Shown here piece by piece: positions 187-57,446 of a stretch of 64,000 bases of DNA (the first letter of the stretch is position 1; every line of letters begins with the position of its first letter). Position numbers and translations under genes: made by a program. The DNA is taken from the NCBI GenBank assembly GCA_013299105.1, contig JAAFJY010000009.1:62001-126000 (forward strand). The letters run 5' to 3'. Below the pieces are notes generated by a model. It ran no database searches and was not told the DNA's origin. It saw only the letters and a program-made list of their open reading frames with translations. The DNA is from Chitinophagales bacterium (lineage in GTDB: Bacteria > Bacteroidota > Bacteroidia > Chitinophagales > Saprospiraceae).

Positions 187-319
187 GGGAGCGTAAAAAA
201 TAAGGTGGACGGATTTGGGGTTAGTGAAAAAAGAAAAGCAACTGACCGGAAGGAAGTTGTGTTCTTTTTTTGCTAACCCTCAAAAGCAAATACGTCCATT
301 TTATTTTAGCTCAAATACT
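187..319. repeat. Hairpin repeat family A, copy A1
   Basis: This near-palindromic element of about 133 bp begins GGGAGCGTAAAAAATAAGG and ends TTTTATTTTAGCTCAAATAC. The arms pair over most of their length: GGTGGACG on the left faces CGTCCATT on the right, and GGGGTTAG faces CTAACCC closer to the loop. Related copies lie at 36251-36384 and 57315-57446, with a left half at 51226-51267. It fills the gap between two minus-strand genes. The only other content of bases 1-327 is the truncated membrane gene. Confidence 0.85.
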
Positions 320-36250: not shown

Positions 36251-36384
36251 GGGAGCGTAAAAAAATAAGGTAAACGAGTTTGGGTTTAGTGAAAAAAGAA
36301 AAGCAACTGGATGAAAGGAAGTTGTGTTCTTTTTTTGCTAAACCTCAAAAACAAAGTTGTTTACCTTATTTTAGCTCAAATACT
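36251..36384. repeat. Hairpin repeat family A, copy A2
   Basis: A 134-bp near-palindrome with the same ends as copy A1. Here GGTAAAC on the left pairs with GTTTACC on the right, and GGGTTTAG with CTAAACC, both changed relative to A1 with pairing kept. It lies about 70 bp upstream of the GH88-like start. Together with copy B3 it accounts for most of the 36180-36614 gap, which holds no gene. Confidence 0.88.
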
Positions 36385-38541: not shown

Positions 38542-40983
38542 CTACTCACTCTTCAAACTCTTCACCGGATTGGCCAAAGCAGCTTTCACACTTTGAAAAC
38601 TCACCGTCAAAAAAGCAATCGACAAAGCACCAATGCCCGCCAACGCAAAAATCCACCAATCAAGCTGGATGCGGTAAGCAAAATCGGCCAGCCATTGGTC
38701 GGTAAAATAGTATGCAACAGGTGAGGCAAGTACAATAGCAATACCAACCAATTTTAAAAAGTCTTTGGCCAACAAGGCGGTGATGCCAGCCACGCTAGCC
38801 CCCAAAACCTTGCGAATGCCAATTTCTTTGGTCCGCTGCTCGGCCATATAGGTCGCCAACGCGAACAAACCAAGGCAGGCAATGAGAATGGCAAACACCG
38901 CAAAACTGGTGAAAATGCGCCCTTGCCTCTGTACATCGTCGTACATCTTGGCAAAACCTTCATCCAAAAAAGTATAACGAATGGCTTGACCAGGCGATAT
39001 TTTTTTCCATACCTTGGTCACTGCTTCAATGGTTTTAGGCATATCGGCAGTATTGATTTTCAGCGCTGTAATGCCGGGGCTATTGCCCAAACGCAGGCAA
39101 AGGCTGCCAATGTTTTCTTTTAATGACTCGAAATGAAAGTCTTCCACCACGCCAATCACGGTAAAGGACTGGTAGTTGTTGCTGATACGCTGGCCAACGG
39201 GATGGTCAAAATGTAAACTTTTAGCCATCGTCTGGTTGATGATTACTGCTTGCGAGTCGCTCGCCATGTCTTGTGAAAAATCGCGTCCATCCACGATTTT
39301 CATGCCCAAGGTGCTGATGTAGCTGTGGTCAATGTCCCACATTTGCATTCCAATCTCGTCCGAAGTACTGCTTTTTTTGGCATCGCGAAAAGTGTTGCCA
39401 TTTCGCTTCGAACCACTTCCTACGATGGGCAAAAAATCGCTTGAACTCACACTTTTTACCCCAGAAACATGGCTGAGTTCTTGTTTGAAGGTGGAGATTT
39501 TGTCGCCCAGGGTTTGGGTGCCTTGCAACAACAAAACTTGGTCCTTTTCATAGCCGAGTCGAGCATTGGAGATGAAATTCATTTGCCGAAGCACCACAAT
39601 GGACCCAATGACCAAAGCAGCCGAGGTGGCAAATTGGAAAACTACCAGTGCACTTCGCAAAGAGGTGTTTTTCTTGCTGCGATTCAAATTGCCTTTCAGC
39701 ACCCGAATCGGTTGGAAAGCGCACATGTACAAAGCTGGATAAAGCCCAGCCAATAAACCAACTACAATTGCAGCAAGTACAAAAATCGGCAAAAACCACC
39801 AGGCCATCCAAGGCATCGTGAGCGACTTAGCGGCCATGTCATTGAAGAAAGGCAAGCAAATGTGGGCCAAAACCAGCCCCAAAACGAAAGCCCCCAGGCT
39901 CAACAACACCGACTCGGCCAAAAACTGCGTCACCAACTGTATGCGCAGCGAACCTACGGCTTTGCGCACACCCACTTCCTTGGCGCGTTCCATCGAGCGA
40001 GCGGTACTCAAATTGATGAAATTGATACAGGCAAGCAGGAAAATACAAATAGCAATGGTGCCAAACAGCCAAACCATGCGCAGGTCACCATTCGAAGAGC
40101 CATTTTCGATCCCAGCAGAATGGAGGTGGATTTGTGAAATGGGCTGCAATTCAAGCGCAATGGAGCTCCGAACCTTTGCGATAGTGGCCTCACCCATGCC
40201 TTCTTTTTTAAAATAGTCTTTCAAGTATTTGTCAAAAACAGCATCGAGCATTTTTCCTTCAAAAGCTTTTACATCCGTCCCAGCCCGCAAGCTGAGGTAG
40301 GTATGGTAATTGCTGGCCCCCCAATTGGTCTGTTCCCCGGGGTAAAATTCCAAGCCTTTTTGGGAGATAAGGAAATCGAAATTCAAGTGCGAATTGCCAG
40401 GGAAATCTTCTATCACCCCGCCGATCTGGTTGGGGTTTTGGGTGTCGTTGTTGAAAATCAGCGTTTTGCCGACTGGGTTTGCTCCGGGGAAATACTTGTC
40501 ACTGATTTTTTTTGAAATCACAATTGAGTTGGGTTGTGAAAGCGCACTATTTCTATTCCCGTAAACCATCGGAATTTCCAACAGTTCCAGCATCTCCGGA
40601 TCGGCGAAAGTGAATCCCTCTTCGTAGTGGTTTTCTACTTCATCCGCTCGACGAATCGAGTTTCCACCCCCTGTAAACAAGGTATTCGGGTTGATGCGTC
40701 CAATGGTTTCGATTTCAGGTAATAATTCTTTCAGCGCAGGCGCAAAGGGCGCTGGAAAATCTACGCCTCTTCCCTCCAAAGCCCCATCGCGATTGACCCC
40801 AATGACGCGGTAAAGTTGATCCCCATTTTTATAAAAATTATCATAATTCAATTCATGGTGGATAAACAAAGCGATCAAGGTGCAGGCCGCCACACCAATT
40901 GCAAAGCCCCCGACTTTGATGGCGGTGTACATTTTTTGTTTGCGCAGGCTGCGGGTTGCGATTTTGAAGTAGTAGGATAGCAT
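38542..40983 (-). CDS. FtsX/MacB-type permease 1 of the array (close paralogue of the 43697-46138 gene)
   Basis: An 813-residue permease, last in transcription order of the array. It begins MLSYYFKIATRSLRKQKMYT and has TM1 at about 22-44, first FtsX helices at about 300-410 with the MERAKEVGVRKAVGSLR coupling motif, TM5 near 440, and second FtsX helices at about 700-800 with EQRTKEIGIRKVLGAS. The ending is NPVKSLKSE. Its sequence is nearly the same as the gene at 43697-46138 along its whole length, pointing to a recent duplication. The start at 40983 is taken from that paralogue; eight further upstream codons exist. It lies 48 bp after the 41032-43506 gene. Confidence 0.94.
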   Translation of the reverse strand: MLSYYFKIATRSLRKQKMYTAIKVGGFAIGVAACTLIALFIHHELNYDNFYKNGDQLYRVIGVNRDGALEGRGVDFPAPFAPALKELLPEIETIGRINPNTLFTGGGNSIRRADEVENHYEEGFTFADPEMLELLEIPMVYGNRNSALSQPNSIVISKKISDKYFPGANPVGKTLIFNNDTQNPNQIGGVIEDFPGNSHLNFDFLISQKGLEFYPGEQTNWGASNYHTYLSLRAGTDVKAFEGKMLDAVFDKYLKDYFKKEGMGEATIAKVRSSIALELQPISQIHLHSAGIENGSSNGDLRMVWLFGTIAICIFLLACINFINLSTARSMERAKEVGVRKAVGSLRIQLVTQFLAESVLLSLGAFVLGLVLAHICLPFFNDMAAKSLTMPWMAWWFLPIFVLAAIVVGLLAGLYPALYMCAFQPIRVLKGNLNRSKKNTSLRSALVVFQFATSAALVIGSIVVLRQMNFISNARLGYEKDQVLLLQGTQTLGDKISTFKQELSHVSGVKSVSSSDFLPIVGSGSKRNGNTFRDAKKSSTSDEIGMQMWDIDHSYISTLGMKIVDGRDFSQDMASDSQAVIINQTMAKSLHFDHPVGQRISNNYQSFTVIGVVEDFHFESLKENIGSLCLRLGNSPGITALKINTADMPKTIEAVTKVWKKISPGQAIRYTFLDEGFAKMYDDVQRQGRIFTSFAVFAILIACLGLFALATYMAEQRTKEIGIRKVLGASVAGITALLAKDFLKLVGIAIVLASPVAYYFTDQWLADFAYRIQLDWWIFALAGIGALSIAFLTVSFQSVKAALANPVKSLKSE

Positions 40984-41031
40984 CATGGTTTTCTTTTTTT
41001 TGTGCAAGAACAGTTAAGGCATGTGGCTACC

Positions 41032-43506
41032 TCATTCACTTTTGAGAGAAGTAACCGGATTCGCCAGCGCCGCTTTCACACTTTGAAAACCAATGGTCAA
41101 TACCGCAATAACCAAGGCCAATAATCCGACCAACAAAAACATCCACCACTGCATGTCGATGCGGTAAGCAAAATCGGCGAGCCATTGGTTCATGAAATAC
41201 CAGGCAATGGGACATGCCAAAACAATGGCAATCGCCACCAATTTGATGAAATCCCTGGCCAGCAGCGAGGTGATTCCCAGCACCGAGGCACCCAAAACTT
41301 TGCGGATGCCAATTTCTTTGGTGCGTTGTTCGGCAGTGTAGGCCGCAAGGGCGAACAGCCCCAAACAGCCGATGAACAAGGCCAAAACCGTAAACAAAGT
41401 CAAGATGGTAGCACCTTTTTGCTCTTGTTGGTAAAGATTTTTGAAAGAATCGTCCAGAAAACTGTATTCAAATGGTGCATTAGGTAGGTCCTTGGACCAC
41501 AAATTTTGCACCTTTCCAATGGCTGCCTTTTCCGTACCGGGTTGAAGGCGCAAGGACAAATAAGAGGCCCAGGTTTGATAAGTATTGGACGATTCGTGGA
41601 AAATTGCGGTGGGTTCAATTACCGTTTGTACCGAGCCGAGGTGAAAATCCCGCATGATGCCGACCACTTGAAAACGCTGATTTCCGTTGCCTGGATAAGT
41701 AATCCATTTGCCGATGGGGTCTTCCCAGCCGATGCTTTTCGCTGCGGCCTCGTTCAAGATAATCGAAGTGGAATCGCTTTTGGCATTGTTGGGGTAAAAG
41801 CCACGGCCTTTGATGATTTCTATGCCTAGGGTGTTGATGAAATCAGCATCGGTCAAAAACGAACTGAGGGCCATGCTTTTGGTCACCGGACTTTTTTGAT
41901 TGCCTTGTTCGGGCTCGTAAAAATCGCCAAAACTGCCAATGGAAGGCAAAAAAGTGGAATGAGAAGCCGCTTTGATCTCTGGGATTTCCAACAACCTTTG
42001 GCGGAAAGCTTCCATTTCACCTGGTTCGCCTAAGTTGCGCAGCATGGGCAAAATCATCACGTGCTCGCGGTTCAAACCCGGTGATTTTTTCATCGCGTAC
42101 TGCAACTGTTGGTACATCACCCAAGAACCTAACATCAAGGCAATCGACACCGTAAACTGCAAAACCACCAAAGCATTGCGTACACCACCGTGCCCACTGC
42201 GGGTGGAGCTATTTGCTTTCCTGAAAATTTCAGAGACTTTGAATCTTGAGAGGAAAAATGCCGGGTAAGTACCGCCCAGTAAGCCAGCTACAAAAGTCAA
42301 AGCCAGGCCTAAGCCCAATACTTTTAAGTTGAATAGGTCCTTGACGACCAGGTTCATGCCCGCCAAGTTGTTGAACAACGGCAAGGCTACTGCGGCCAAA
42401 ACCAAAGCCAAAATCCAAGCCATCAGGCTGAAAAAGAGCGACTCAGCCATGAACTGACCAATCAAAGTCTGGCGCTGCGAACCCAATGCTTTTCTGACCC
42501 CCACCTCGCGGGCGCGCTGCATGGAACGGGCGGTGGAAAGGTTCATGAAATTGACGCAAGCCAACAACAAGATTAAAGCGCCGATCAAGCCATAAGTACG
42601 CACTTGCTTGCTATTGCCCAAGGTAGTCAACCTGGAAATCAGCGTACCTTGGCCAAGGTGCAAGGTTTTCAAGGGGAAAAGTTTGACATTGTAGCGGTCA
42701 CCTTTTTCCATTTGTTTGATCAAGTCAACACCGATTCGATTGTAGGCTGCTGGCGCGTGGGCTTTGACCATTGATGGAAACTTAGCTTCCAATTCGGCCA
42801 CGGTTGCGGGCGTGGCTTCTTTTCTCAATTTTACCCAAGTATCCATTTGTAGCCAAATCCAACTCCATGAGAAGTTGTCAATGACCCGAAAGGTGTTTAA
42901 GGACAACAAAAAGTCGAACTGAAGCGATGAGTTTTTGGGCAAATCCTCCGTAATGCCAGTGACCGTGTAGGGTGAATCATTGAAAGACATTTGTTGCCCG
43001 ATTGGCGATTTTTTGCCAAAGTACTTTTCGGCCATTTTTTTACTCAGCACCACGCTGTTTTTGCGATCCAAAGCGGTGCTGGCCTTGCCTTCGAGCATTT
43101 GATAGCCAAACAACTCCAGGAAACTAGAATCGGCACCATAAGCCGTATTTTCATTAAAAACCAAGGGTGCTTGCCCCGGAATGTCGCGTCGAACCACCGT
43201 TTCTTGCAAGTAAAAAGTACGGGCAGCCGATTCAATCTCCGGGTAATCCAGCAAAAGCCTGGGACCCAGCGGGGGAGGGGTATTGGTGGTCAAGCCCTCG
43301 TCTTCTCCAAATTTCAGGTCCAAACCCACTGCACAGATCTGGTTTACATCCGGTACGAAACGGTCAAAACTGCGCTCGTTTAACACAAACAAGCCAATCA
43401 ACCAGGTAGCAGCCAAACCAATGGCTAGTCCGCTGATGTTGATGAGCGTGTAGAGGCGGTTCTTTTGAAAATTGCGCAAGGCGATTTTTAGAGCAGTAGG
43501 TATCAT
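41032..43506 (-). CDS. FtsX/MacB-type permease 2 of the array
   Basis: An 824-residue permease. Its N-terminus is MIPTALKIALRNFQKNRLYT, with TM1 at about 25-45. The first FtsX domain (about 305-420) has the coupling motif MQRAREVGVRKALGSQR, TM5 lies near 455, and the second domain (about 710-815) has EQRTKEIGIRKVLGASV. It sits between the two near-identical paralogues but is clearly diverged from both (for example its PYTVTGITEDLPKNSSLQFD segment). The start at 43506 is chosen because a sigma-54-like site occupies 43533-43548, where a longer reading frame would begin. Confidence 0.93.
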   Translation of the reverse strand: MIPTALKIALRNFQKNRLYTLINISGLAIGLAATWLIGLFVLNERSFDRFVPDVNQICAVGLDLKFGEDEGLTTNTPPPLGPRLLLDYPEIESAARTFYLQETVVRRDIPGQAPLVFNENTAYGADSSFLELFGYQMLEGKASTALDRKNSVVLSKKMAEKYFGKKSPIGQQMSFNDSPYTVTGITEDLPKNSSLQFDFLLSLNTFRVIDNFSWSWIWLQMDTWVKLRKEATPATVAELEAKFPSMVKAHAPAAYNRIGVDLIKQMEKGDRYNVKLFPLKTLHLGQGTLISRLTTLGNSKQVRTYGLIGALILLLACVNFMNLSTARSMQRAREVGVRKALGSQRQTLIGQFMAESLFFSLMAWILALVLAAVALPLFNNLAGMNLVVKDLFNLKVLGLGLALTFVAGLLGGTYPAFFLSRFKVSEIFRKANSSTRSGHGGVRNALVVLQFTVSIALMLGSWVMYQQLQYAMKKSPGLNREHVMILPMLRNLGEPGEMEAFRQRLLEIPEIKAASHSTFLPSIGSFGDFYEPEQGNQKSPVTKSMALSSFLTDADFINTLGIEIIKGRGFYPNNAKSDSTSIILNEAAAKSIGWEDPIGKWITYPGNGNQRFQVVGIMRDFHLGSVQTVIEPTAIFHESSNTYQTWASYLSLRLQPGTEKAAIGKVQNLWSKDLPNAPFEYSFLDDSFKNLYQQEQKGATILTLFTVLALFIGCLGLFALAAYTAEQRTKEIGIRKVLGASVLGITSLLARDFIKLVAIAIVLACPIAWYFMNQWLADFAYRIDMQWWMFLLVGLLALVIAVLTIGFQSVKAALANPVTSLKSE

Positions 43507-43532
43507 GGAGAAAATCATTTGTGCGACATAGT

Positions 43533-43548
43533 TCAAAGATTGTGCCAA
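43533..43548 (-). promoter_or_regulatory. Sigma-54-like promoter of permease 2
   Basis: The minus strand reads TTGGCACAATCTTTGA: -24 TTGGCACA, four bases, -12 TTGA. Predicted transcription start is about 15 nt before the ATG at 43506. Confidence 0.5.
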
Positions 43549-43639
43549 TTACTTAAATTATTGTAAATCAGAATTTTAAAATGATAGCTCTTGAGGTTGG
43601 TGTTCGAAATTGTACAATATGGTGTGCGTTATTGACAAA

Positions 43640-43676
43640 CGGCACCAAAACGTACATGGAGTACGTTCGGGTGCCG
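43640..43676 (-). terminator. Terminator hairpin of permease 3
   Basis: CGGCACC pairs with GGTGCCG, and inside it AACGTAC pairs with GTACGTT, giving a 14-bp stem with a 2x2 internal mismatch and a five-base loop. It starts 20 bp after the stop of the 43697-46138 gene on the minus strand. Confidence 0.65.
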
Positions 43677-43696
43677 CATGGGTTGGAACTCAATTT

Positions 43697-46138
43697 TTAT
43701 TCGCTCTTCAAACTCTTCACCGGGTTCGCCAAAGCTGCTTTCAAGCTCTGGAAACCCACCGTCAAAAATGCAATCGACAAAGCACCAATACCTGCTGCTG
43801 CAAAAATCCACCATTCAAGCCGAATGCGGTAAGCAAAATCAGCTAGCCATTGGTCCATGAAATAATAGGCTACCGGAGCGGCGAGTAAAATAGCGATGCC
43901 AACCAATTTTAAAAAATCTTTGGCCAACAAGGCGGTGATGCCAGCCACGCTGGCTCCTAAAACCTTGCGAATACCAATTTCTTTGGTCCGCTGCTCGGCC
44001 ATGTAGGTTGCCAAAGCAAACAAACCAAGGCAGGCAATGAGAATGGCAAACACCGCAAAACTGGTGAAAATGCCCCCCTGCCTTTGTACTTCGTTGTACA
44101 TCTTAGTGAATCCTTCATCGAGAAAAGTGTAACGAATGGCTTGGCTGGGCGACATTTTTTTCCACACCTTGGTCACTGCTTCGATGGTTTTAGGCATCTC
44201 GGCAGCATTAATCTTTACTGCTGTGATCCCAGGACTTGATCCCAAATGCAGGCAAAGGTTGCCGATGTTTTCCTTCATTGATTCGAAGTGAAAGTCTTCT
44301 ACTACGCCAATCACGGTAAAAGTTTGGGAGTTATTGCTTAGGCGTTTGCCAATAGGATTGTCAGAATTCAAAGCTTTGGCCATCGTCTGGTTGATGATTA
44401 TAGCCTGTGAATCACCAGCCATGTCTTTTGCAAAATCACGTCCTTCCACGATTTTCATGCCCAAAGTGCTGATGTAGTGGTGGTCAACGGTCCAGATTTG
44501 CAGTTCGATCTCATTCGAGTTGTCGCCTTTTTCTACATCATGAAAAGTATTGGTATTGCGTTTTGAACCACCTCCAACGATGGGCAAATAATCGCTCGAA
44601 CTCACACTTTTTACCCCCGAAACTTGCCGTAGTTCTTGTTGTAAGGCTGGGATTTTGTCGCCTAAAGCCTGGGTACCTTGCAGCAATAGAACTTGCTCTT
44701 TGTCATAACCCAATCGGGTATTGGAAATGAAATTCATCTGCCGGAGCACCACGATCGCTCCAATGACCAAAGCAGCCGAAGTCGCAAATTGAAAAACCAC
44801 CAAAGTGCTTCGCAAGGAGGTGTTTTTCTTGCTGCGACTCAAATTGCCTTTCAGCACCCGAATCGGTTGGAAAGCACACATGTACAAGGCCGGATAAAGT
44901 CCCGCCATCAAACCAACTACAATTGCTGCAACTGCAAGAAGTGGCAAAAACCACCAAGCAGTCCAAGGCATGGCTAGCGACTTGTCGGCCATTTCATTGA
45001 AAAAAGGCAGACAAATGTTGGCCAAAAGCAGCCCTAAAACGAAAGCCCCCAGACTCAAGATCACCGACTCGGCCAAAAACTGCGACACCAACTGGATGCG
45101 CTGCGAACCTACGGCTTTGCGTACGCCCACTTCCTTGGCGCGTTCCATCGAACGGGCGGTGCTCAAATTGATGAAATTGATACAAGCAAGCAAAAAAATG
45201 CAAATTGCAATGGTGCCAAACAGCCAAATCATGCGCTGATCACCATGCGAAAAAGTGTCTTTGATCTCAGCCGAATGAAGGTGAATTTGAGAAATGGGTT
45301 GCAATTCAAGCGATGTAGAACCCCTGATTTTTGAAATGGCTGCCTCGTCCATCCCCTCATTCTTTAAATAATCTTTATAGAAATTGTCAAAAAAAGCATC
45401 AAGCATTTTTCCTTCAAAAGCCTTTACATTCGTTCCTGCGCGCAAGCTGAGGTAAGTATGGTAATTGCTGGCCCCCCAATCGGTTTGTTCACCGGGCCAA
45501 AAATCCAAGCCTTTTTTTGTGATGAGGAAGTCGAAATTTAAGTGCGTATTGTCAGGGAAATCTTGCATCACGCCCCCGATCTGTTTGGGATTTTGGGTGT
45601 CGTCGTTGAAAATCAGCGTTTTGCCCACCGGGTTTTCACCAGGAAAATACATGTCGCTGATTTTTTTTGAAATGACAATGGAGTTGGGCTGCGCAAGGGC
45701 GCTTTTTCGATCGCCATAAACCATTGATACTTCTAATAAATCCAGCATCTCCGGATCAGCAAACGCGAAGCCTTCTTCGTAGTGGTTTTCTACTTCATTG
45801 GATCGTCGAAAAGAGTTTCCGCCTCCTGTAAACAAGGTATTCGGGTTGAGGCGAGCGATGGTCTCGATTTCAGGCATCAGGTCTTTCATCGCGGGTGCAA
45901 AGGGTGCTGGACAATCCACCCCCCTTCCTTCCAGTGCGCCATCGCGATAGATTCGAACCACACGGTACAAGTGCTGCCCGTTTCTGTAAAAATTATCATA
46001 GTTCAACTCATGATGGATGAACAAGGCGATCAAAGTACAAGCTGCAACACCGATGGCGAAACCGCCAACTTTGATAGCGGTGTACATTTTTTGCTTGCGT
46101 AGGCTGCGGGTCGCGATTTTGAAATAGTAGGAGAGCAT
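43697..46138 (-). CDS. FtsX/MacB-type permease 3 of the array (close paralogue of the 38542-40983 gene)
   Basis: An 813-residue permease of exactly the same length as the 38542-40983 product and nearly identical over TM1, both FtsX domains and the C-terminal half. Differences cluster in the periplasmic domains: for example ESIIL/ESVLL near the first FtsX domain and KRNTNTFHDVEKGDNSNE against KRNGNTFRDAKKSSTSDE. This suggests the two copies keep the transport core but vary in what they recognise outside. It has its own sigma-54-like promoter (46163-46179) and a terminator hairpin after its stop, so it is probably a single-gene transcript. Confidence 0.94.
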   Translation of the reverse strand: MLSYYFKIATRSLRKQKMYTAIKVGGFAIGVAACTLIALFIHHELNYDNFYRNGQHLYRVVRIYRDGALEGRGVDCPAPFAPAMKDLMPEIETIARLNPNTLFTGGGNSFRRSNEVENHYEEGFAFADPEMLDLLEVSMVYGDRKSALAQPNSIVISKKISDMYFPGENPVGKTLIFNDDTQNPKQIGGVMQDFPDNTHLNFDFLITKKGLDFWPGEQTDWGASNYHTYLSLRAGTNVKAFEGKMLDAFFDNFYKDYLKNEGMDEAAISKIRGSTSLELQPISQIHLHSAEIKDTFSHGDQRMIWLFGTIAICIFLLACINFINLSTARSMERAKEVGVRKAVGSQRIQLVSQFLAESVILSLGAFVLGLLLANICLPFFNEMADKSLAMPWTAWWFLPLLAVAAIVVGLMAGLYPALYMCAFQPIRVLKGNLSRSKKNTSLRSTLVVFQFATSAALVIGAIVVLRQMNFISNTRLGYDKEQVLLLQGTQALGDKIPALQQELRQVSGVKSVSSSDYLPIVGGGSKRNTNTFHDVEKGDNSNEIELQIWTVDHHYISTLGMKIVEGRDFAKDMAGDSQAIIINQTMAKALNSDNPIGKRLSNNSQTFTVIGVVEDFHFESMKENIGNLCLHLGSSPGITAVKINAAEMPKTIEAVTKVWKKMSPSQAIRYTFLDEGFTKMYNEVQRQGGIFTSFAVFAILIACLGLFALATYMAEQRTKEIGIRKVLGASVAGITALLAKDFLKLVGIAILLAAPVAYYFMDQWLADFAYRIRLEWWIFAAAGIGALSIAFLTVGFQSLKAALANPVKSLKSE

Positions 46139-46162
46139 GGAAAAAATATTTAAGTTGTACCT

Positions 46163-46179
46163 GCCAAAGACTGTGCCAA
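46163..46179 (-). promoter_or_regulatory. Sigma-54-like promoter of permease 3
   Basis: The minus strand reads TTGGCACAGTCTTTGGC: -24 TTGGCACA, four bases, -12 TTGG followed by C. Predicted transcription start is about 13 nt before the ATG at 46138. Confidence 0.5.
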
Positions 46180-46266
46180 AAGTGCAAGTAATTGATATAC
46201 AGATTATTTAAGTATTTTTATAAATCAATTTTTGTTCGAAAATGAACAATGAGATGTGCGAAAACA

Positions 46267-46308
46267 ACAAACAGCATCGGGTCAAAGCAATGGCCCGATG
46301 CTGTTTGT
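46267..46308 (-). terminator. Terminator hairpin of permease 4
   Basis: ACAAACAGCATCGGG and CCCGATGCTGTTTGT form a 15-bp perfect stem around a 12-base loop, starting 20 bp after the stop of the 46328-48760 gene. A T-rich stretch follows on the minus strand. Confidence 0.82.
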
Positions 46309-46327
46309 TTGATTAAGTCGCAAAAAA

Positions 46328-48760
46328 TTACTCGCTCCTCAAACTTTTTATCGGATTGGCCAAAGCCGCTCGGATGCTCTGAAAGCTCAAAGTCAAAAAT
46401 GCAATGCCCAGTGCGCCAATGCCAGCCAGTACAAAAACCCACCACTGTATTTCAATGCGATAAGTAAATTCTTTGAGCCATTGCTGCATGAAGTACCAAG
46501 CTAGGGGAGAAGCAATGATGATGGAAATCAAAACTAATCGTAAAAAGTCCTTGCTCAACATGGTGGTAATGCCAAAAGTAGTAGCGCCTAATACCTTGCG
46601 GATGCCAATTTCCTTGGTCCTTTGCTCGGTCATGTACGTTACCAAGCCAAACAAGCCCAAACAAGCCAATAAAATCGTCAGAAATGAAAAGCACAATGCG
46701 ATTTTTCCTACCCTCAGCTCGGCGCGGTACATGTTGTTGAAGGATTCGTCCAGGAATTGGTAGTCAAATGGTGCACCCCCCGCCATCGTTTTCCATTTCT
46801 CGGCGATTTGGGGGATCAGCTTGGTGCTTTCAGCGGCGCCAAGTTTGAAAGCTAAAGCCCAATCGTTTGGCCTTAGGCGCATGGCCAGGGGGCCAATTTC
46901 ATTTCGCATGGAAGAGAAATGGAAGTTTTTGACCACCCCAATGATGGTGTAAGGAACCGCGCCGCCCGCGTCTCCCTCGGCAGAGTAGATTTTTTTGCCT
47001 ACTGGATGTGTGAATCCCAAGAACTTGGCTGCTGTCTCGTTGATGATGATACCAGTAGAATCACTGCCATAGGCTTTGGAAAAATTGCGGCCTTCCGAGA
47101 TTTCCATGCCCAGGTTGGGGATGTAGCCTTCGTCCACGTTCCAAATTTGCATGTTGAAGCCATTCTTGGCGTCAATGGTGGATTCTTTTGAAAACGGATT
47201 ATCACTGCGCGCAGAGTTGTCAACGGGTAAATAACCTGCTCCAGAAGCACTTTTCACCCCCTTGAGGCGCAGAATTTCATTCCTGAAGGCCATATTGTTG
47301 TTCATCAATGCATTGGTGCCATTGAGGACCAAGACCTGGTCTTTGTTGAAACCCAAATTGGTTTGCTGGATAAAATTGAGCTGGCGATAGACCACCAAGG
47401 TTGCAATGATCAGCAAAAGTGAAATGCTGAATTGGGTGCTCACCAGTACATTGCGGAAAATGCTCTTACTGGATGCGGCATTGACCTTGCTTTTCAATAC
47501 CTCAATCGGGCGGAAAGAAGACAAGAAAAAAGCCGGATAATAACCCGCCAACAAGCCCACTACTATGGGCAAGGCCAAAACCAAGCCAAAAAATGGAAAT
47601 TGGAACACATGACTCCAAGAGAAGTTTTTACCTGCCAATTGGTTGAAAAAAGGCAACAAGCTCAGCACCAAAAGCAAGCCAAAGACCAGTGAAATGCCGC
47701 TTGACAAGACCGATTCCGCTAAAAATTGCCCCATCAAGGTTTGTTTGCTAGTGCCCATCACCTTGCGGATGCCTACTTCTTTGCTGCGTTTGGCCGAACG
47801 GGCGGTGCTTAAATTGATGAAATTGATGCTGGCAATGAGCAGCAAAAACAATGCTACGATGCCAAAGACCCGAACATACTGCATGTTGCCGTTGACACTC
47901 AATTCTACCGCACGCCCATCACTTCTCAGGTGAATGTCTTGCAAAGGCAGCAAAGAATAAACGATTGAATTACCCGCTTTTTCAAAATCCTCACGGTTTT
48001 TGATTTGCATGAATTGTTGCGCCTGGGGGAATACATATCGGTCAATCAGGTCAGGGAATTTAGCTTCGAGTTTTTTGGCGTCAGCTCCTTTTTTTAACAG
48101 GATGTAAGTATGAAAGTTGTGGCCCAAATAATTACCAAATTGATAGTTCGCATTGTGCATCGAAAAGAGTACATCGAAACGGAAATGCGAGTTGGCAGGC
48201 ATGTCTTCAAAAACTGCGGTAACCTTGTATTTGAGTTTCTCTTCCATGTCTACCACCAGGGTTTGACCAAGGGCCGCACCTTTAAAATACTTTTCAGCCG
48301 CACTCCGGCTGATGGCAACCGTATAAGGCTCGTTCAGTGCCGTTTGGGCCTTCCCTTCGATGATCGGCCTTGGGAAAACATCAAAAAAAGTAGAATCAGT
48401 GTAAGCACAAGCGCTTTCAGTGATCCAATCTTCGCCTTTTCGAATGAATTTTGCACCTTCATTGGCATATATGCGAGTGTATTGCTCTACTTCAGGATAA
48501 TCTCGCTTTAAACTCTCGCCAAACGGATCGGAAGTCACGGCCACCTTCAAATCTGCGCCCCCAAAACTGATGTCCGATTGTACCCGATAAATGTCTTTGG
48601 CACGTGGATAAAAGCGGTCATAACTCAGTTCATCCACAATGAACAAGGCAATGAAAATAAAGGCCGCAAAGCCAAGCCCCAGCCCAAAAATATTGATGAA
48701 GCTGAAGATTTTATTTTTTACGAGGTTTCGCCAGGCGATGGTTAAATAACTTTGGATCAT
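46328..48760 (-). CDS. FtsX/MacB-type permease 4 of the array
   Basis: An 810-residue permease. It begins MIQSYLTIAWRNLVKNKIFS, TM1 lies at about 22-44, the first FtsX domain (about 290-400) has AKRSKEVGIRKVMGTSK, TM5 is near 430, and the second FtsX domain (about 695-800) has EQRTKEIGIRKVLGATT. It ends NPIKSLRSE. It starts 36 bp after the 48797-51205 gene, so those two could be cotranscribed, and a strong terminator follows. No sigma-54-like site was found directly upstream. Confidence 0.93.
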   Translation of the reverse strand: MIQSYLTIAWRNLVKNKIFSFINIFGLGLGFAAFIFIALFIVDELSYDRFYPRAKDIYRVQSDISFGGADLKVAVTSDPFGESLKRDYPEVEQYTRIYANEGAKFIRKGEDWITESACAYTDSTFFDVFPRPIIEGKAQTALNEPYTVAISRSAAEKYFKGAALGQTLVVDMEEKLKYKVTAVFEDMPANSHFRFDVLFSMHNANYQFGNYLGHNFHTYILLKKGADAKKLEAKFPDLIDRYVFPQAQQFMQIKNREDFEKAGNSIVYSLLPLQDIHLRSDGRAVELSVNGNMQYVRVFGIVALFLLLIASINFINLSTARSAKRSKEVGIRKVMGTSKQTLMGQFLAESVLSSGISLVFGLLLVLSLLPFFNQLAGKNFSWSHVFQFPFFGLVLALPIVVGLLAGYYPAFFLSSFRPIEVLKSKVNAASSKSIFRNVLVSTQFSISLLLIIATLVVYRQLNFIQQTNLGFNKDQVLVLNGTNALMNNNMAFRNEILRLKGVKSASGAGYLPVDNSARSDNPFSKESTIDAKNGFNMQIWNVDEGYIPNLGMEISEGRNFSKAYGSDSTGIIINETAAKFLGFTHPVGKKIYSAEGDAGGAVPYTIIGVVKNFHFSSMRNEIGPLAMRLRPNDWALAFKLGAAESTKLIPQIAEKWKTMAGGAPFDYQFLDESFNNMYRAELRVGKIALCFSFLTILLACLGLFGLVTYMTEQRTKEIGIRKVLGATTFGITTMLSKDFLRLVLISIIIASPLAWYFMQQWLKEFTYRIEIQWWVFVLAGIGALGIAFLTLSFQSIRAALANPIKSLRSE

Positions 48761-48796
48761 AGCTTTTGTGTTTTGAATGTTAGTATTTGGGGTGAG

Positions 48797-51205
48797 TTAT
48801 TCGCTCTTCAGCGATTTCACCGGATTGGCCAAAGCAGCTTTGATGGCTTGAAAACTGACCGTTAGCATGGTGATAACCAATGCACCCGCTCCTGCTGCAG
48901 CAAAAATCCACCAGGAGATTTGGGCATGGTAGGTGTATTTTTGAATCCATTCATTCATGAAATAGTAAGCGATGGGGGAAGCGACTACGCAAGAAATAAT
49001 GACCAGAAACACAAAATCCTTCGACAGCATTTGCCATAAATTAGCAATACTTGCGCCCAATACTTTTCGAATGCCGATTTCTTTGGTGCGTTGTTCGGCT
49101 ACAAAACTGGCCAAACCAAAGAGCCCCAAGCAGGAAATAAAAATGGCAAGCATAGCAAAAAGCGTAGCCAAGTGCCCAATGCGTTGCTCGGCTTGGAATT
49201 TGGAGGCATAATCATCGTCTACAAAAAAAGCCATGAATGGGGATGAGGGTATCGTTTTTTTCTGAATGGCCTCAATTTTCGCCAAGGCAGCCTTCATGGA
49301 CATGTTTGGGCTAACTTTTATTTGCATTTGCGACAGGGTGTTGAGGTCTTTTTCTAACCTATAAAAACTTTGTCGAACGGGCTCGTATGGTGACTCACTG
49401 ACCACATCTTCGACTACGCCAATAATTTGGTTTCTCTCGCCTCCGTCTTGAGTGACGAATTCACCAATTGGGTTTTTCAACCCCATGTATTTAATCGCCG
49501 ACTTGTTGACGATGATTTTACTTGAATCGGTGCCAAAATCGCGTGAGAAATCCCTGCCTTCAAGTATTTTCCATTGAATGGTTTTTCCATAATCCTCATC
49601 AATCCAATTGAATGCAAAGCTGGACTCCGCTTGAGGGTCTTTTCCCTTCCAAGTAAAACCTCCCCAATTGTTCCAAATTTCAGTGACCGGGCTATTGGAA
49701 AATGCTACATTACTGGCCACCCCACTGGCTAATAGCTCGTTTTTCATGGTCAGCATGTTGTCTTGAAAATTGAGGTCATTCATGGGAATCCTCACCAGGC
49801 TTTCACGATTGTAGCCCACCGGGCGGTTTTGGACATACTGAATTTGGCGATAAACGATGATCGTACCAATGATCAATACCACCGAAACGGTAAATTGGAC
49901 AACCACCAAAATTTTGCGCGGTAGCGAAGCGTACTTGCCTGCACGAATAGTGCCTTTTAATACCTTAATTGGCTTGAATGAAGAAAGGTAAAAAGCTGGA
50001 TAAATACCTGACAATAAAGATGTTATTAATAAAAATGCACCACTCAAAAGCCAAAAATAAGCATTTGAATAAGGCAGTTCGATGCGTTTGTCGGCCAATT
50101 CGTTAAAGGCACTGATGGAAATCGTCACAATTGACAATGACAAAACAAAAGCGAATAAAACGACCAAAAGCGACTCGCTCAAAAACTGTTTGATCAACTG
50201 CGACTTTAATGAACCAATGGCTTTGCGAATGCCCACTTCTTTGGCCCGTTTTTCGCTGCGTGCAGTGCTTAGGTTCATAAAATTGATGCAAGCAAGGAGC
50301 AATACAAAGGCCCCAACAATGCCAAAAAGCCATACAAAATTGATGCGTCCATCCTTGAGGTATCCATCTTCTATAGCATACAAGTACCAGTTTTTCATGG
50401 GGTGCAACCACAACTCAGACTGGTATATCTTGGCCTCTGCTTGGATATCAGAGGGAGTATCTTTGAGGAATACGTCTTTGATGGCAGCATTGGCCTGCTC
50501 AAGGCTAACATTGTCGGCAAGTTGTACAAATTGGAGTTGAGAGGTATTGCCCCAGTTGTTCTCATTGTTTTTGAGGCCAGGTTCATACGCTTTTTGGTGT
50601 TCAAAGTTGCCAAAAAAGTCAATGTCCCCAAAGCTTGAATTTTTTGGAATATCCGCATACACGCCCGTTATTTTTGTCTCTATTCGGTTATCCAATTTTA
50701 TGGGCTCATTAATGGGGTCTTTGTCGCCAAAAAGGGCCTTGGCCATCGATGTAGAAATCACAATTCCTTGTTTATCATTCATGCTTTCTTTGCTTCCACG
50801 CAGCATTTTCAAGGAAAGTAAATCAATGATGCCATTTTGCACAAAACGCCCATGTTTGGTGAAATGGTTTTCGCCAATTCGAATGGAATAATCGCCCTCC
50901 CAATTTAGAATGATCACGTGCTTGAAAAGGTGCCCATATTTGATTCTCAACACCTCTGCCAGGGGTTGTTGCATGTTATCAAAGTTGGTTACTTTTTTCT
51001 CCAAAGGCTCAATCGAACGAACTTGAAGGCTGGCAATACGCTGATAGTTGGGAAAACAATGGTTATAGCTAAGTTCATCCCAAACCCAGAGCCCAATGAG
51101 CATTGCAACCGCCATACCCAAGGCCAAACCCAAGATATTGATGGAAGAAAAAACCTTGTTTTTTACCAAATTTCGAAAAGCAATTGTAAGGTAGTTGCGT
51201 AGCAT
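48797..51205 (-). CDS. FtsX/MacB-type permease 5 of the array
   Basis: An 802-residue permease with the N-terminus MLRNYLTIAFRNLVKNKVFS, which closely matches the stub at 53656-53781. TM1 is at about 22-43, the first FtsX domain (about 285-395) has EKRAKEVGIRKAIGSLK, and the second (about 690-790) has EQRTKEIGIRKVLGASI. The ending is NPVKSLKSE. The periplasmic parts are more diverged than those of permeases 1 and 3 (INEPIKLDNRIETKITGVYA; NNWGGFTWKGKDPQAESSFA). The left half of a family A hairpin repeat lies 21 bp upstream of the start. Confidence 0.93.
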   Translation of the reverse strand: MLRNYLTIAFRNLVKNKVFSSINILGLALGMAVAMLIGLWVWDELSYNHCFPNYQRIASLQVRSIEPLEKKVTNFDNMQQPLAEVLRIKYGHLFKHVIILNWEGDYSIRIGENHFTKHGRFVQNGIIDLLSLKMLRGSKESMNDKQGIVISTSMAKALFGDKDPINEPIKLDNRIETKITGVYADIPKNSSFGDIDFFGNFEHQKAYEPGLKNNENNWGNTSQLQFVQLADNVSLEQANAAIKDVFLKDTPSDIQAEAKIYQSELWLHPMKNWYLYAIEDGYLKDGRINFVWLFGIVGAFVLLLACINFMNLSTARSEKRAKEVGIRKAIGSLKSQLIKQFLSESLLVVLFAFVLSLSIVTISISAFNELADKRIELPYSNAYFWLLSGAFLLITSLLSGIYPAFYLSSFKPIKVLKGTIRAGKYASLPRKILVVVQFTVSVVLIIGTIIVYRQIQYVQNRPVGYNRESLVRIPMNDLNFQDNMLTMKNELLASGVASNVAFSNSPVTEIWNNWGGFTWKGKDPQAESSFAFNWIDEDYGKTIQWKILEGRDFSRDFGTDSSKIIVNKSAIKYMGLKNPIGEFVTQDGGERNQIIGVVEDVVSESPYEPVRQSFYRLEKDLNTLSQMQIKVSPNMSMKAALAKIEAIQKKTIPSSPFMAFFVDDDYASKFQAEQRIGHLATLFAMLAIFISCLGLFGLASFVAEQRTKEIGIRKVLGASIANLWQMLSKDFVFLVIISCVVASPIAYYFMNEWIQKYTYHAQISWWIFAAAGAGALVITMLTVSFQAIKAALANPVKSLKSE

Positions 51206-51225
51206 TGGATTTGGTTTGTGGATGT

Positions 51226-51267
51226 TAGAGCGCGTAAAAAAATAAGATGGACGGATTTGGTTTGACT
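51226..51267. repeat. Hairpin repeat family A, left-half copy A4
   Basis: AGAGCGCGTAAAAAAATAAG, then ATGGACGGATTTGGTTTGAC, matches the left arm of copies A1-A3. The right arm and loop are missing; the stop of the next permease gene begins 5 bp further on. Confidence 0.7.
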
Positions 51268-51271
51268 AGCT

Positions 51272-53653
51272 TCATTCAGACCTCAAACTCTTCACCGGAT
51301 TAGCCAAAGCCGCTCTCACGCCCTGAAAACTCACCGTCAAAAAAGCAATCAGCAAGGCCCCCAATCCCGCCGTTGCAAACATCCACCACTGGAGTTGGAT
51401 GCGGTAGGCGAAGTCGGCAAGCCATTGGTTCATGAAGTACCAGGCCAGGGGAGAAGCCAATACAATGGCGGCCAAAACCCATTTCAAGAAGTCTTTGGCC
51501 AACATGCCAGCCAGGCCACTCACCGTAGCTCCCAACACTTTACGGATGCCAATTTCTTTGGTGCGCTGCTCTGCCAGGAAGCTGGCCATGCCAAACAAAC
51601 CCAGGCAAGCGATCAGGGTAGCTAAGACGGAGAAAATGCCAAAAACCCGGCCCATGCGTTGCTCCAAGGTGTAGAGCTGGGCAAAATCTTCGTCCAGAAA
51701 GCTATAATTAAAAGTTGCAGTTGGTGCAGCTTTTTGCCAGGCAGCTTTGGTGTCGGCGATGCCTTTCTCCAGTTGCCCCGGCTTGAGTTTGATTGACAAA
51801 TAGCCAATCGGCGGCCAATTGGCCAACTTCAACACCAAGGGTTCAACCGCAGTATGCAAGGATTGATAATTGAAATCCTTCATCACCCCCACTACTTTGC
51901 CCGGATCAAACCCGCCCATGGTCAAAGTTTTGCCGATGGGATCTTTCCAGCCCAAACGTTTGGCCGCAGCTTCATTAATGATGCAAGCTGTGCTGTCGGT
52001 ACCCCTACCTGCTTCAAAATTTCGGCCTTGTACAAACTCAACGTTAAGTGTTTTAGCGAAATCAACATCCACAAATGCATAAGTGAGAGAGGTTTCTTCG
52101 TAGTTGGCGGGCTGTTCTGGTAAAAAGATGGTGCTGTCAAATTCTTTAGAAGGTACACTGGTGCTTGCTCCGATGTGTTCTACTGCGTTTGATTTTTCCA
52201 ACTCGTACCGGAAGGCTTGATAGCTCTCTCCCAGGTCTTGCCCCCTGGAAACGATCAAGACCCTCTCTTTGTCAAAGCCCAGTCGCTTGTTTTGCAAAAA
52301 CTGCAATTGACTGCGTACCGCAACTGCCCCAATGATGAGAGCGATGGAAATGCCGAATTGAGTCACTACCAAGGCGCTGCGCAAGCCCTTTTGTCCCGCC
52401 ATTTTGCCACTCGAAGATTGCCCTTTGAGTACCTTGATGGGCTGAAAACCCGACAATACATAAGCCGGAAAAGCTCCTGCCGCCAGGGTGGTAAAAGCAA
52501 TCAAACCTAAAACCAGCAAGGGCAAAAACGGTGTGCCCAGCCAATCCATGCTCATTTGTTTATCCGCCAAGGTATTGAATGCAGGCATGGACAACTGCGC
52601 CAAAGCGATGGCCAGCAACACCGCCAATACAACTTGGATGAATGCCTCAAACAAAAACTGAAAGATCAATTTTCCTTTGTTCGAGCCCAAAACCTTGCGC
52701 ACACCCACCTCGCGGGCGCGGGTGCTCAGGCGAGCCGTGGCCAGGTTGATGAAGTTGATACAAGCCAAAAACAAAATGAAGCAACCCGTCAAACCAAAAA
52801 TACGCAGGTAAGCATAGCTGCCATTGGGCTTGATTTCCATGTCAATGTCAGAATGCAAATGGATATCAGTCAACTTCTGAAAAGGGAAAGAAGTGTAGTT
52901 TTTGCCTTCCTTGAAATCATTGCTCATGTCATTGCCATCAAGGTACTTTTGCAGTTTTTTTTGCAAAACATCCGCATCCATGCCGGGTTTGAGCAAAAAG
53001 TAAGTCATGCAAGTTGCTGAAGACCAATTGTCGCGGCGCTCTTGCATGGCTTTGCGCGTTTTGATTGGGCGCAGGAACTCAAACTCCAAATGCGATTGTG
53101 CAGGAAGATTTTCGACTACTGCCAATACTTGCAAGCTCTCCCCGTCCTTGTTTTGAATGGACTTGCCCACCACATTGGTTTGGCCAAAATAACGTTCGGC
53201 AGCGCTGCGGCTCAAGATCAGCCCATCGGGTGCACTCATCGCTTTTTGCGCGTCCCCTTCGATGGAGGGCACGCTGAAAAGGTCAAAGAATTTTTCGTCG
53301 ATGTACAAAACTTTCTCTTCCAAGCGGGTTTCTGAGCCCCATTTCAAACTCAGCGATCCGCGAGAAAGTTGGCTGGCTTTTTCGACTTCTCCAAACTGCG
53401 ACTCCAGCAAGGGAGCCAAAGGAGCAGGACCTGCCGTAATCTCCCACTCGTTTTCGCCAAAACGGGCTTTCCAATAAGCACGGTAAACCCGATCAGCTTT
53501 GGCGTGAAAACGATCATAAGACCATTCATCTTTGACCCAGGCAAAAAGCAAAAGACAAACGGCCAAGCCAATGGCCAAGCCAAAAAGATTGAGGAAAGTG
53601 TGGCCTTTGTATTTGGCCAATTGGCGCAAGGCGAGTTTGAAGTTGTTGTTCAT
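51272..53653 (-). CDS. FtsX/MacB-type permease 6 of the array
   Basis: A 793-residue permease, first in transcription order of the array. The N-terminus MNNNFKLALRQLAKYKGHTF differs from the others. TM1 is at about 20-38, the first FtsX domain (about 280-395) has STRAREVGVRKVLGSNK, TM5 lies near 420, and the second domain (about 680-785) has EQRTKEIGIRKVLGATV. The ending NPVKSLRSE is shared. The ATG at 53653 lies 2 bp beyond the stop of a 41-codon permease stub, so translation of the two could be coupled. No ATPase gene accompanies it. Confidence 0.93.
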   Translation of the reverse strand: MNNNFKLALRQLAKYKGHTFLNLFGLAIGLAVCLLLFAWVKDEWSYDRFHAKADRVYRAYWKARFGENEWEITAGPAPLAPLLESQFGEVEKASQLSRGSLSLKWGSETRLEEKVLYIDEKFFDLFSVPSIEGDAQKAMSAPDGLILSRSAAERYFGQTNVVGKSIQNKDGESLQVLAVVENLPAQSHLEFEFLRPIKTRKAMQERRDNWSSATCMTYFLLKPGMDADVLQKKLQKYLDGNDMSNDFKEGKNYTSFPFQKLTDIHLHSDIDMEIKPNGSYAYLRIFGLTGCFILFLACINFINLATARLSTRAREVGVRKVLGSNKGKLIFQFLFEAFIQVVLAVLLAIALAQLSMPAFNTLADKQMSMDWLGTPFLPLLVLGLIAFTTLAAGAFPAYVLSGFQPIKVLKGQSSSGKMAGQKGLRSALVVTQFGISIALIIGAVAVRSQLQFLQNKRLGFDKERVLIVSRGQDLGESYQAFRYELEKSNAVEHIGASTSVPSKEFDSTIFLPEQPANYEETSLTYAFVDVDFAKTLNVEFVQGRNFEAGRGTDSTACIINEAAAKRLGWKDPIGKTLTMGGFDPGKVVGVMKDFNYQSLHTAVEPLVLKLANWPPIGYLSIKLKPGQLEKGIADTKAAWQKAAPTATFNYSFLDEDFAQLYTLEQRMGRVFGIFSVLATLIACLGLFGMASFLAEQRTKEIGIRKVLGATVSGLAGMLAKDFLKWVLAAIVLASPLAWYFMNQWLADFAYRIQLQWWMFATAGLGALLIAFLTVSFQGVRAALANPVKSLRSE

Positions 53654-57314: not shown

Positions 57315-57446
57315 GAGAGCGTAAAATAATAAGGTAAACGAATTTGGGTTTAGTGGAAAAAGATGAGCAACTGACTGAAAGAAAGTTGGGTTCTTTTCTT
57401 GCTTCACCTCAAGAGCAAATACGTTTTTTTATTTTAGCTCAAATAC
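57315..57446. repeat. Hairpin repeat family A, copy A3
   Basis: GAGAGCGTAAAATAATAAGG at the left and TTTTTTTATTTTAGCTC at the right are separated by a diverged centre (GGGTTTAG on the left, CTTCACC on the right), so pairing is weaker than in A1 and A2. It lies between the patatin and first DUF4249 genes. The remainder of the 57262-57548 gap shows nothing recognisable. Confidence 0.82.

Follow-up and report, generated by a model that had tools for sequence, protein, structure and literature searches.

The hairpin family A, which occurs in three full copies and one half copy in a 64,000-nt window (G000:C77:62001-126000, the whole stretch of DNA that was analysed), is best read as a non-autonomous MITE, with the 3-bp target-site duplication (TSD), a transposase of the IS5/IS1031 kind, and dependence on the fold as parts of the same explanation (probability about 0.82). 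The elements are 133 bp long, within the MITE limit of ~500 bp, have no coding capacity, are present in many copies, and carry inverted ends and a TSD, as MITEs do. A transposase supplied in trans would recognise both ends (GNGAGCG... / ...GCTCNAATAC) and insert the element at TWA, best as C-TWA-G, duplicating 3 bp. Mobilisation, or survival through replication, would depend on good folding: lineages that spread and diverge keep their pairing through two-sided changes, whereas resident copies gather one-sided mutations.

Copies, Folding, and Target Duplication

The family A consensus of the aligned copies is 133 bp long with the borders GGGAGCG…CTCAAATAC. The terminal inverted repeats are imperfect: the outer 11 bp match poorly and are followed by AAAATAAG, located at positions 12-19 from both ends in A2, and then by a long matching stem. 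All copies reported in the first-pass annotation were recovered at near-identical coordinates (Table 1), and the matched arm changes that it quoted between A1 and A2 were correct on re-reading. Its description of one long hairpin per copy holds for A1 (-56.9 kcal/mol, z -9.4) and A2 (-52.0 kcal/mol, z -9.0), each with 0 of 200 shuffles as low on the + strand, but not for the degraded fold of A3 (-31.8 kcal/mol, z -2.8; 2 of 200 shuffles as low). The window has three occurrences of both ends at family A spacing, whereas 100 shuffles gave none. No perfect 3-bp TSD flanks any of the three full window copies. The location between two minus-strand genes agrees with the ORF list for A2 and A3, while the left neighbour of A1 reaches the window edge. 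The half copy adjoins the 3' end of ORF 51272-53653 (-) and lies between two of the six tandem ORFs of 793-838 aa at 38542-53653 (-); the tested members (41032-43548, 48797-51205, and 51272-53653) are MacB_PCD + FtsX permeases.

Table 1. Family A copies in the window and parts of the starting copy A2.
Feature	Coordinates	Strand	Remarks
Copy A1	187..318	+	Full length, 132 bp; flanks TTA / TGA
Copy A2	36251..36383	+	Full length, 133 bp; starting copy of the study; flanks TAA / TAT
Copy A3	57315..57446	+	Full length, stem decayed; flanks TTA / CAA
Half copy (left arm only)	51228..51265 (about)	+	By reading; absent from the nhmmer matches
A2 left arm	36251..36283	+	End GGGAGCG; close to the base 5 nt are unpaired, and the outer stem follows; from folds
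A2 apical part AAGCAACTGGATGAAAGGAAGTTGTG	36301..36326	+	Alignment, by eye, unquantified: similarity among subfamilies from different genera is among the highest here
A2 3'-arm bulge, ~7 nt, TCAAAAA	36345..36351	+	From folds; the T and E subfamilies have 6 nt
A2 right arm and end TTTTAGCTCAAATAC	36352..36383	+	

The genome of origin (G000) is a 7.67-Mb draft in 77 contigs, from which an unselected sample of 1.264 Mb was used (400 kb each of C1 and C12, 320 kb of C34, 80 kb of C56, and the window). It contains 67 family A copies by nhmmer, i.e., ~53 per Mb, among which 55 are full length, the 12 truncated matches being omitted from the full-copy counts. By extrapolation, there are ~400 copies genome-wide, so the element is not unique to the window sites, a possibility raised at the outset. 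A pattern with both ends perfect found 76 copies genome-wide, the right end alone was found 186 times, and BLAST of the same genome listed 437 first-look candidates, 40 of them scored. Altogether, 160 distinct full copies were collected from the sample, 40 further stretches chosen for holding known copies, and the match loci.

Among the 55 full copies of the unselected sample, 34 are flanked by a 3-bp TSD (shuffle mean 9.9, largest 19 in 10,000), and in none of the 55 are four flanking bases equal. In the larger set, the TSD is present in 91 of the 160 full copies, mostly as TAA/TTA (shuffle mean 29.6, largest 49), and a perfect one is absent from the other 69. The target is TWA, with T at -3 and A at -1 in 44/55 copies each, and its context is C-TWA-G (C at -4 in 22/55 and G at +4 in 24/55). 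The non-autonomous mobile palindrome that the first-pass annotation had listed among its options is thus supported by the ~400 copies, the TSDs, the intergenic location, and the random orientation. One stretch with two copies (L170) gave no contiguous match across either copy in the four congeners and hence no clean empty site; in a flanking-protein scan of named genomes, the best 80 of 577 homologues are 51-62% identical, which is too distant for empty sites.

REPINs likewise occur as many extragenic hairpins, and the GGAG near the 5' end of family A is the tetranucleotide mark of REP sequences. A REPIN/BIME-like origin, with a RAYT (Y1) transposase moving the element in single-stranded form, is nevertheless very improbable here, given the 3-bp TSD; REPINs are not known to have a TSD of the family A type, and single-strand Y1 transposition is not known to make one of 3 bp.

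Other repeats were also observed in G000. A CRISPR-like array (G000:C34:139621-145825; L108-L109) has 90 exact repeat cores GTCCAAAATTGATGGGGACTG with ~70-bp spacing. Family B is a frequent repeat, GTnAGTAACGGTTCAAAAATAAACCTTnCCA, with 119 linked k-mer intervals, and family D is a long palindromic repeat of ~190 bp at 16 places in the sample, whose ends resemble AGAGnTGTTTAAA...TTTAAACAnCTCT in the consensus only, an end search giving 0 matches.

Gene Context and the Putative Transposase

Gene context was determined for 145 of the 160 copies, and one was found inside a called ORF, as judged by a crude gene caller. The gene arrangements seen from the element are 47/37/33/20 (137 placed, one in an ORF, and seven without two flanking genes), so that the single orientation of the window copies is chance. 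In the unselected sample, the arrangements are 19/17/13/4 (53 of 55 placed), and co-directional genes border 64% of the intergenic DNA, divergent genes 23%, and convergent genes 14%. Downstream of genes, 66 copies lie on the same strand and 55 on the opposite strand (p 0.36). Of 29 copies that touch a stop codon (-20 to +9 bp), 23 share the strand of the gene (binomial p 0.002), but at 10-29 bp two are on the same strand and eight on the opposite strand. Where a copy is inserted at a stop codon, as some are, a stop remains, formed by TAA or by TA together with the first G of the element. Inserted copies are probably neutral for the most part.

A structured RNA or attenuator that acts on the flanking genes and spreads as a regulatory module would fit the strong + strand fold of A1 and A2, the strand bias of the stop-codon-touching copies, and the apical loop and 3' bulge, which are alike across genera while the stems are changed on both sides. 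This explanation is considered improbable: the overall counts, including the 2 vs 8 at 10-29 bp, give no orientation rule, no terminator-like site was found at A2, Rfam 15 returned 0 matches for the window at gathering scores and 0 for the loci L171 and L040 at E up to 5, and the TSDs show movement. The leader RNA and attenuator options of the first-pass annotation were dropped on the first three of these grounds.

The 3-bp TWA duplication suggests that family A, as a MITE, is moved by a transposase of the IS5/IS1031 kind, and TWA preference is typical of that group. The genome of origin gave one PF13586 and eight PF01609 matches, which overlap; none of its nine transposase loci, when scanned for family A ends, has both around the gene. 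Two of the nine show the broken copy of L075 described below, and at one, L125, a lone left end stands >550 bp beyond the inverted repeats of the IS itself. The intact IS5-type element of G000 (PF13340, PF01609, PF13586) has TTA flanks and the ends GAAGCCGTTTTAAAATCC. At L075 (G000:C1:271188-273800), a copy broken at position 37 is followed by an IS5-type IS (terminal inverted repeat GAAGCCGTTTTAAAATCC, TTA on both sides) and a second stretch matching PF01609. The PF13586 transposase at C1:271647-272495 was rejected as the parent, having IS ends of its own with TTA on both sides, and so was the homologue of this IS in G201, whose ends GAGCCTGTTTAAAA are unlike family A. By reading, the unmatched ends in the 1.264 Mb showed no transposase gene enclosed by family A ends, and neither did the 21 left ends of the complete genome G201. 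The parent transposon may be gone or may lie in the unread part of the genome of origin.

Arm Changes Within and Between Genomes

Paired changes in the two arms were initially taken to mean that folding is selected or that the arms are copied from each other. Among copies of the same genome, this does not hold, recent changes being one-sided. Two-sided changes are more frequent than in shuffles in a set of 27 copies, but two adjacent pairs (GG/CC vs AA/TT) account for 23 of the 27 such cells, for which reason the A1/A2 differences were rejected as general covariation. With 99 copies, a pairing excess over independence is confined to 22/112, 23/111, 26/108, and 28/106, with little or none elsewhere. 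In 49 nearest-neighbour pairs from these copies, paired columns change one-sidedly 293 times and two-sidedly 31 times, and slid-partner controls give 21-29 two-sided changes. Stem columns vary about like unpaired ones (0.078 vs 0.099), and rare stem mutations show no bias towards keeping a G.U pair (9 vs 9 among singletons and 53 vs 66 at up to 5 copies); selection of an RNA fold through a G.U bias was rejected on these counts, and the uncompensated present copies and the similar variation of stem and unpaired columns likewise speak against an RNA. Resident copies decay without compensation. In this, they differ from REPINs, in which two-sided (compensatory) hairpin changes are called common (PMC3116915).

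A covariance model built from 27 copies was run over 60 genomes and then over 248 genomes of the order, the latter with stricter filters and 13 candidates scored per genome listed. The first search matched G000, one weak site in the congener G003 (E 0.006), and one in G048; the G003 match reads as a short terminator-like hairpin. The second matched, besides G000, three genomes (G201, G265, and G232) that all belong to a single other genus. None of the four congeners had a BLAST match, with 21 candidates scored in each, and an exact end-pattern scan gave 0 matches in a set of named genomes from which the genome of origin and near genomes may be absent. The relatives in G201, G265, and G232 are full length, with the same or variant ends and, by reading, mostly a TWA duplication. 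They share a 5-nt unpaired stretch near the left base, a 6-nt right-arm bulge, and a similar apical loop, and their stems are rewritten. In G201, 12 of 21 left ends have a recognisable right end, and 9 of these 12 have a 3-bp TSD.

Between subfamilies, the arms do change together. The consensuses A-T, A-E, and T-E differ by 4, 11, and 12 two-sided and 1, 4, and 1 one-sided changes, respectively, counted at pairs present in both folds. When this restriction is lifted, E forms 38 of the 48 pairs of A (null mean 26.9, largest 37 in 5000) and T forms 41 of 48 (null 35.6, p 0.0004), the T consensus being derived from 5 of 11 T-type loci and the E consensus from 4 of 6, with L206 left out. The first-pass reading of paired changes, which fails within the genome, where 31 two-sided changes stand against controls of 21-29, does hold between subfamilies of different genera. 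As E and T pair above the null with both arms rewritten, the fold seems to be kept in the lineages that spread and not in resident copies. In our reading, the fold matters for movement or inheritance and not for a function at individual sites.

An ordinary MITE whose fold has no role is a possible though rather unlikely alternative, in which new subfamilies are born as fresh palindromes by fold-back synthesis or arm-to-arm copying. It is consistent with the one-sided decay within the genome, and arm copying fits the GG/CC and AA/TT states at 22-23/111-112; in addition, T has a perfect outer stem and no longer shows the 1x1 mismatch found in A (27/107). Internally deleted copies also occur, and one shared insertion has lost its centre. 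Wholesale arm copying, however, would erase the one-sided bulge, yet 6-7 nt of it are kept in three subfamilies.

Size variants were observed in both genera. One insertion is common to two species, G201 (L228) and G265 (L194), with flanks 79% and 84% identical, and the G201 copy is without its centre (74 bp vs 134 bp), a natural palindrome-centre loss. Apical insertions of ~12 bp occur in 31 of the 160 copies of the genome of origin and of ~28 bp in 3 of 9 aligned G201 loci, while short, internally deleted copies are few in the genome of origin.

The match in G048, from another genus of the family, belongs to a hairpin MITE (L171, L174-L182) with the ends NNTTCTTWGACAAAT, unlike those of family A, and with direct repeats of 8 or more bp in five of nine copies, 6-7 bp in three, and none in one. 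By reading, the fold of L171 has the same core layout as family A (5 bp, 18 bp, 26 nt, 18 bp, 7-nt bulge, and 5 bp). Core consensus identity between A and G048 is 34/79 vs 23.9 in pair-preserving shuffles (95 of 5000 reach 34); the alignment score is 56 for L171 vs at most 44 in 500 shuffles and 33 for the G048 consensus, a value reached by 8 of 500. MAFFT did not align the G000 and G048 cores gap-free. The covariance model gives L171 47.1 bits and its antisense 11.8, but the antisense strands of six G000 copies score 31.8-42.5 (those of two L045 copies 17-20), and any kinship of the two families is on this account tentative. At the G048 solo-end loci, visual inspection of the first 60 residues of each ORF >100 aa showed no transposase.

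Hairpin-Axis Linkage and Known Repeats

In 160 copies with 18 common variable sites, association between sites weakens with distance along the hairpin (rho -0.55) and not with distance along the DNA (rho -0.05), with a p value that ignores the non-independence of copies. The 113 unique haplotypes gave rho -0.55 and -0.08, respectively, with hairpin height assigned manually for a few unpaired sites, and the left-right linkage pattern was reached by 0 of 5000 permutations of right-arm site labels. The linked groups are sites 22-23 with 107-112 (84-90 bp apart), 28 with 106, and 60-64 mutually, facing linked positions being 78–90 bp apart along the DNA. The three groups are nearly unlinked to each other, and all eight combinations exist. 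Pairing alone fails to explain this linkage because 28/106 is linked as A-T or G.G (85 and 60 of 160), a combination that is also impossible by arm copying and so counts against fresh palindromes as the source of subfamilies.

Close copies seldom differ at the linked groups (39 pairs), and the linked combinations are for this reason old, while sites 50, 53, and 114 and the 12-bp insert change often. One tentative and doubtful explanation is that the hairpin is the unit of exchange, with tips swapped between copies at equal height on both arms, e.g., by a break or trimming at an extruded hairpin that would be refilled from another copy. Inheritance of variants would then follow the axis of the hairpin instead of the DNA, and continued spread would be limited to fold-keeping lineages. 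SbcCD is known to cut extruded palindromes in Escherichia coli. The linkage was not accepted as proof of such exchange, since the linked groups are old and few events, in copies that are not independent, may underlie them.

Among known systems, the IS5-family (IS1031-like)-derived MITEs of bacteria and their eukaryotic counterpart, the Tourist/PIF-Harbinger elements, are likewise short, geneless, intergenic, and high in copy number, with inverted ends and a 3-bp TWA duplication. According to PMC12730594, canonical Harbinger elements make 3-bp TSDs and IS1031 is listed in the IS5 family. Unlike the IS5/IS1031-derived MITEs, family A consists of little more than a single hairpin, which has a bulge on one arm and an apical loop that is similar in different genera, and no parent IS with matching ends was found in the parts of the genome of origin that were read. 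ERIC/RU-1, RU-2, and YPAL of enterobacteria and the Correia elements of Neisseria are also mobile intergenic repeats of 100-170 bp. The ERIC/RU, YPAL, and Correia elements fold as hairpins, and their ends and TSD differ from those of family A. Their sequence relation to it was checked through Rfam (0 matches), and the sizes of RU elements are given in PMC2759123. No description of family A was found in open-licence papers on MITEs, Saprospir*, and Bacteroidetes/IS5, including PMC10969869.

If the axis linkage holds genome-wide, it would be evidence for extrusion and recombination of long palindromes in vivo, and family D offers a possible independent test of it. The ~400 copies, together with the relatives in a second genus, separate two timescales, i.e., the free decay of residents and the upkeep of the fold in the moving lineage, and make it testable whether the fold of a palindromic repeat serves its moving or the host.
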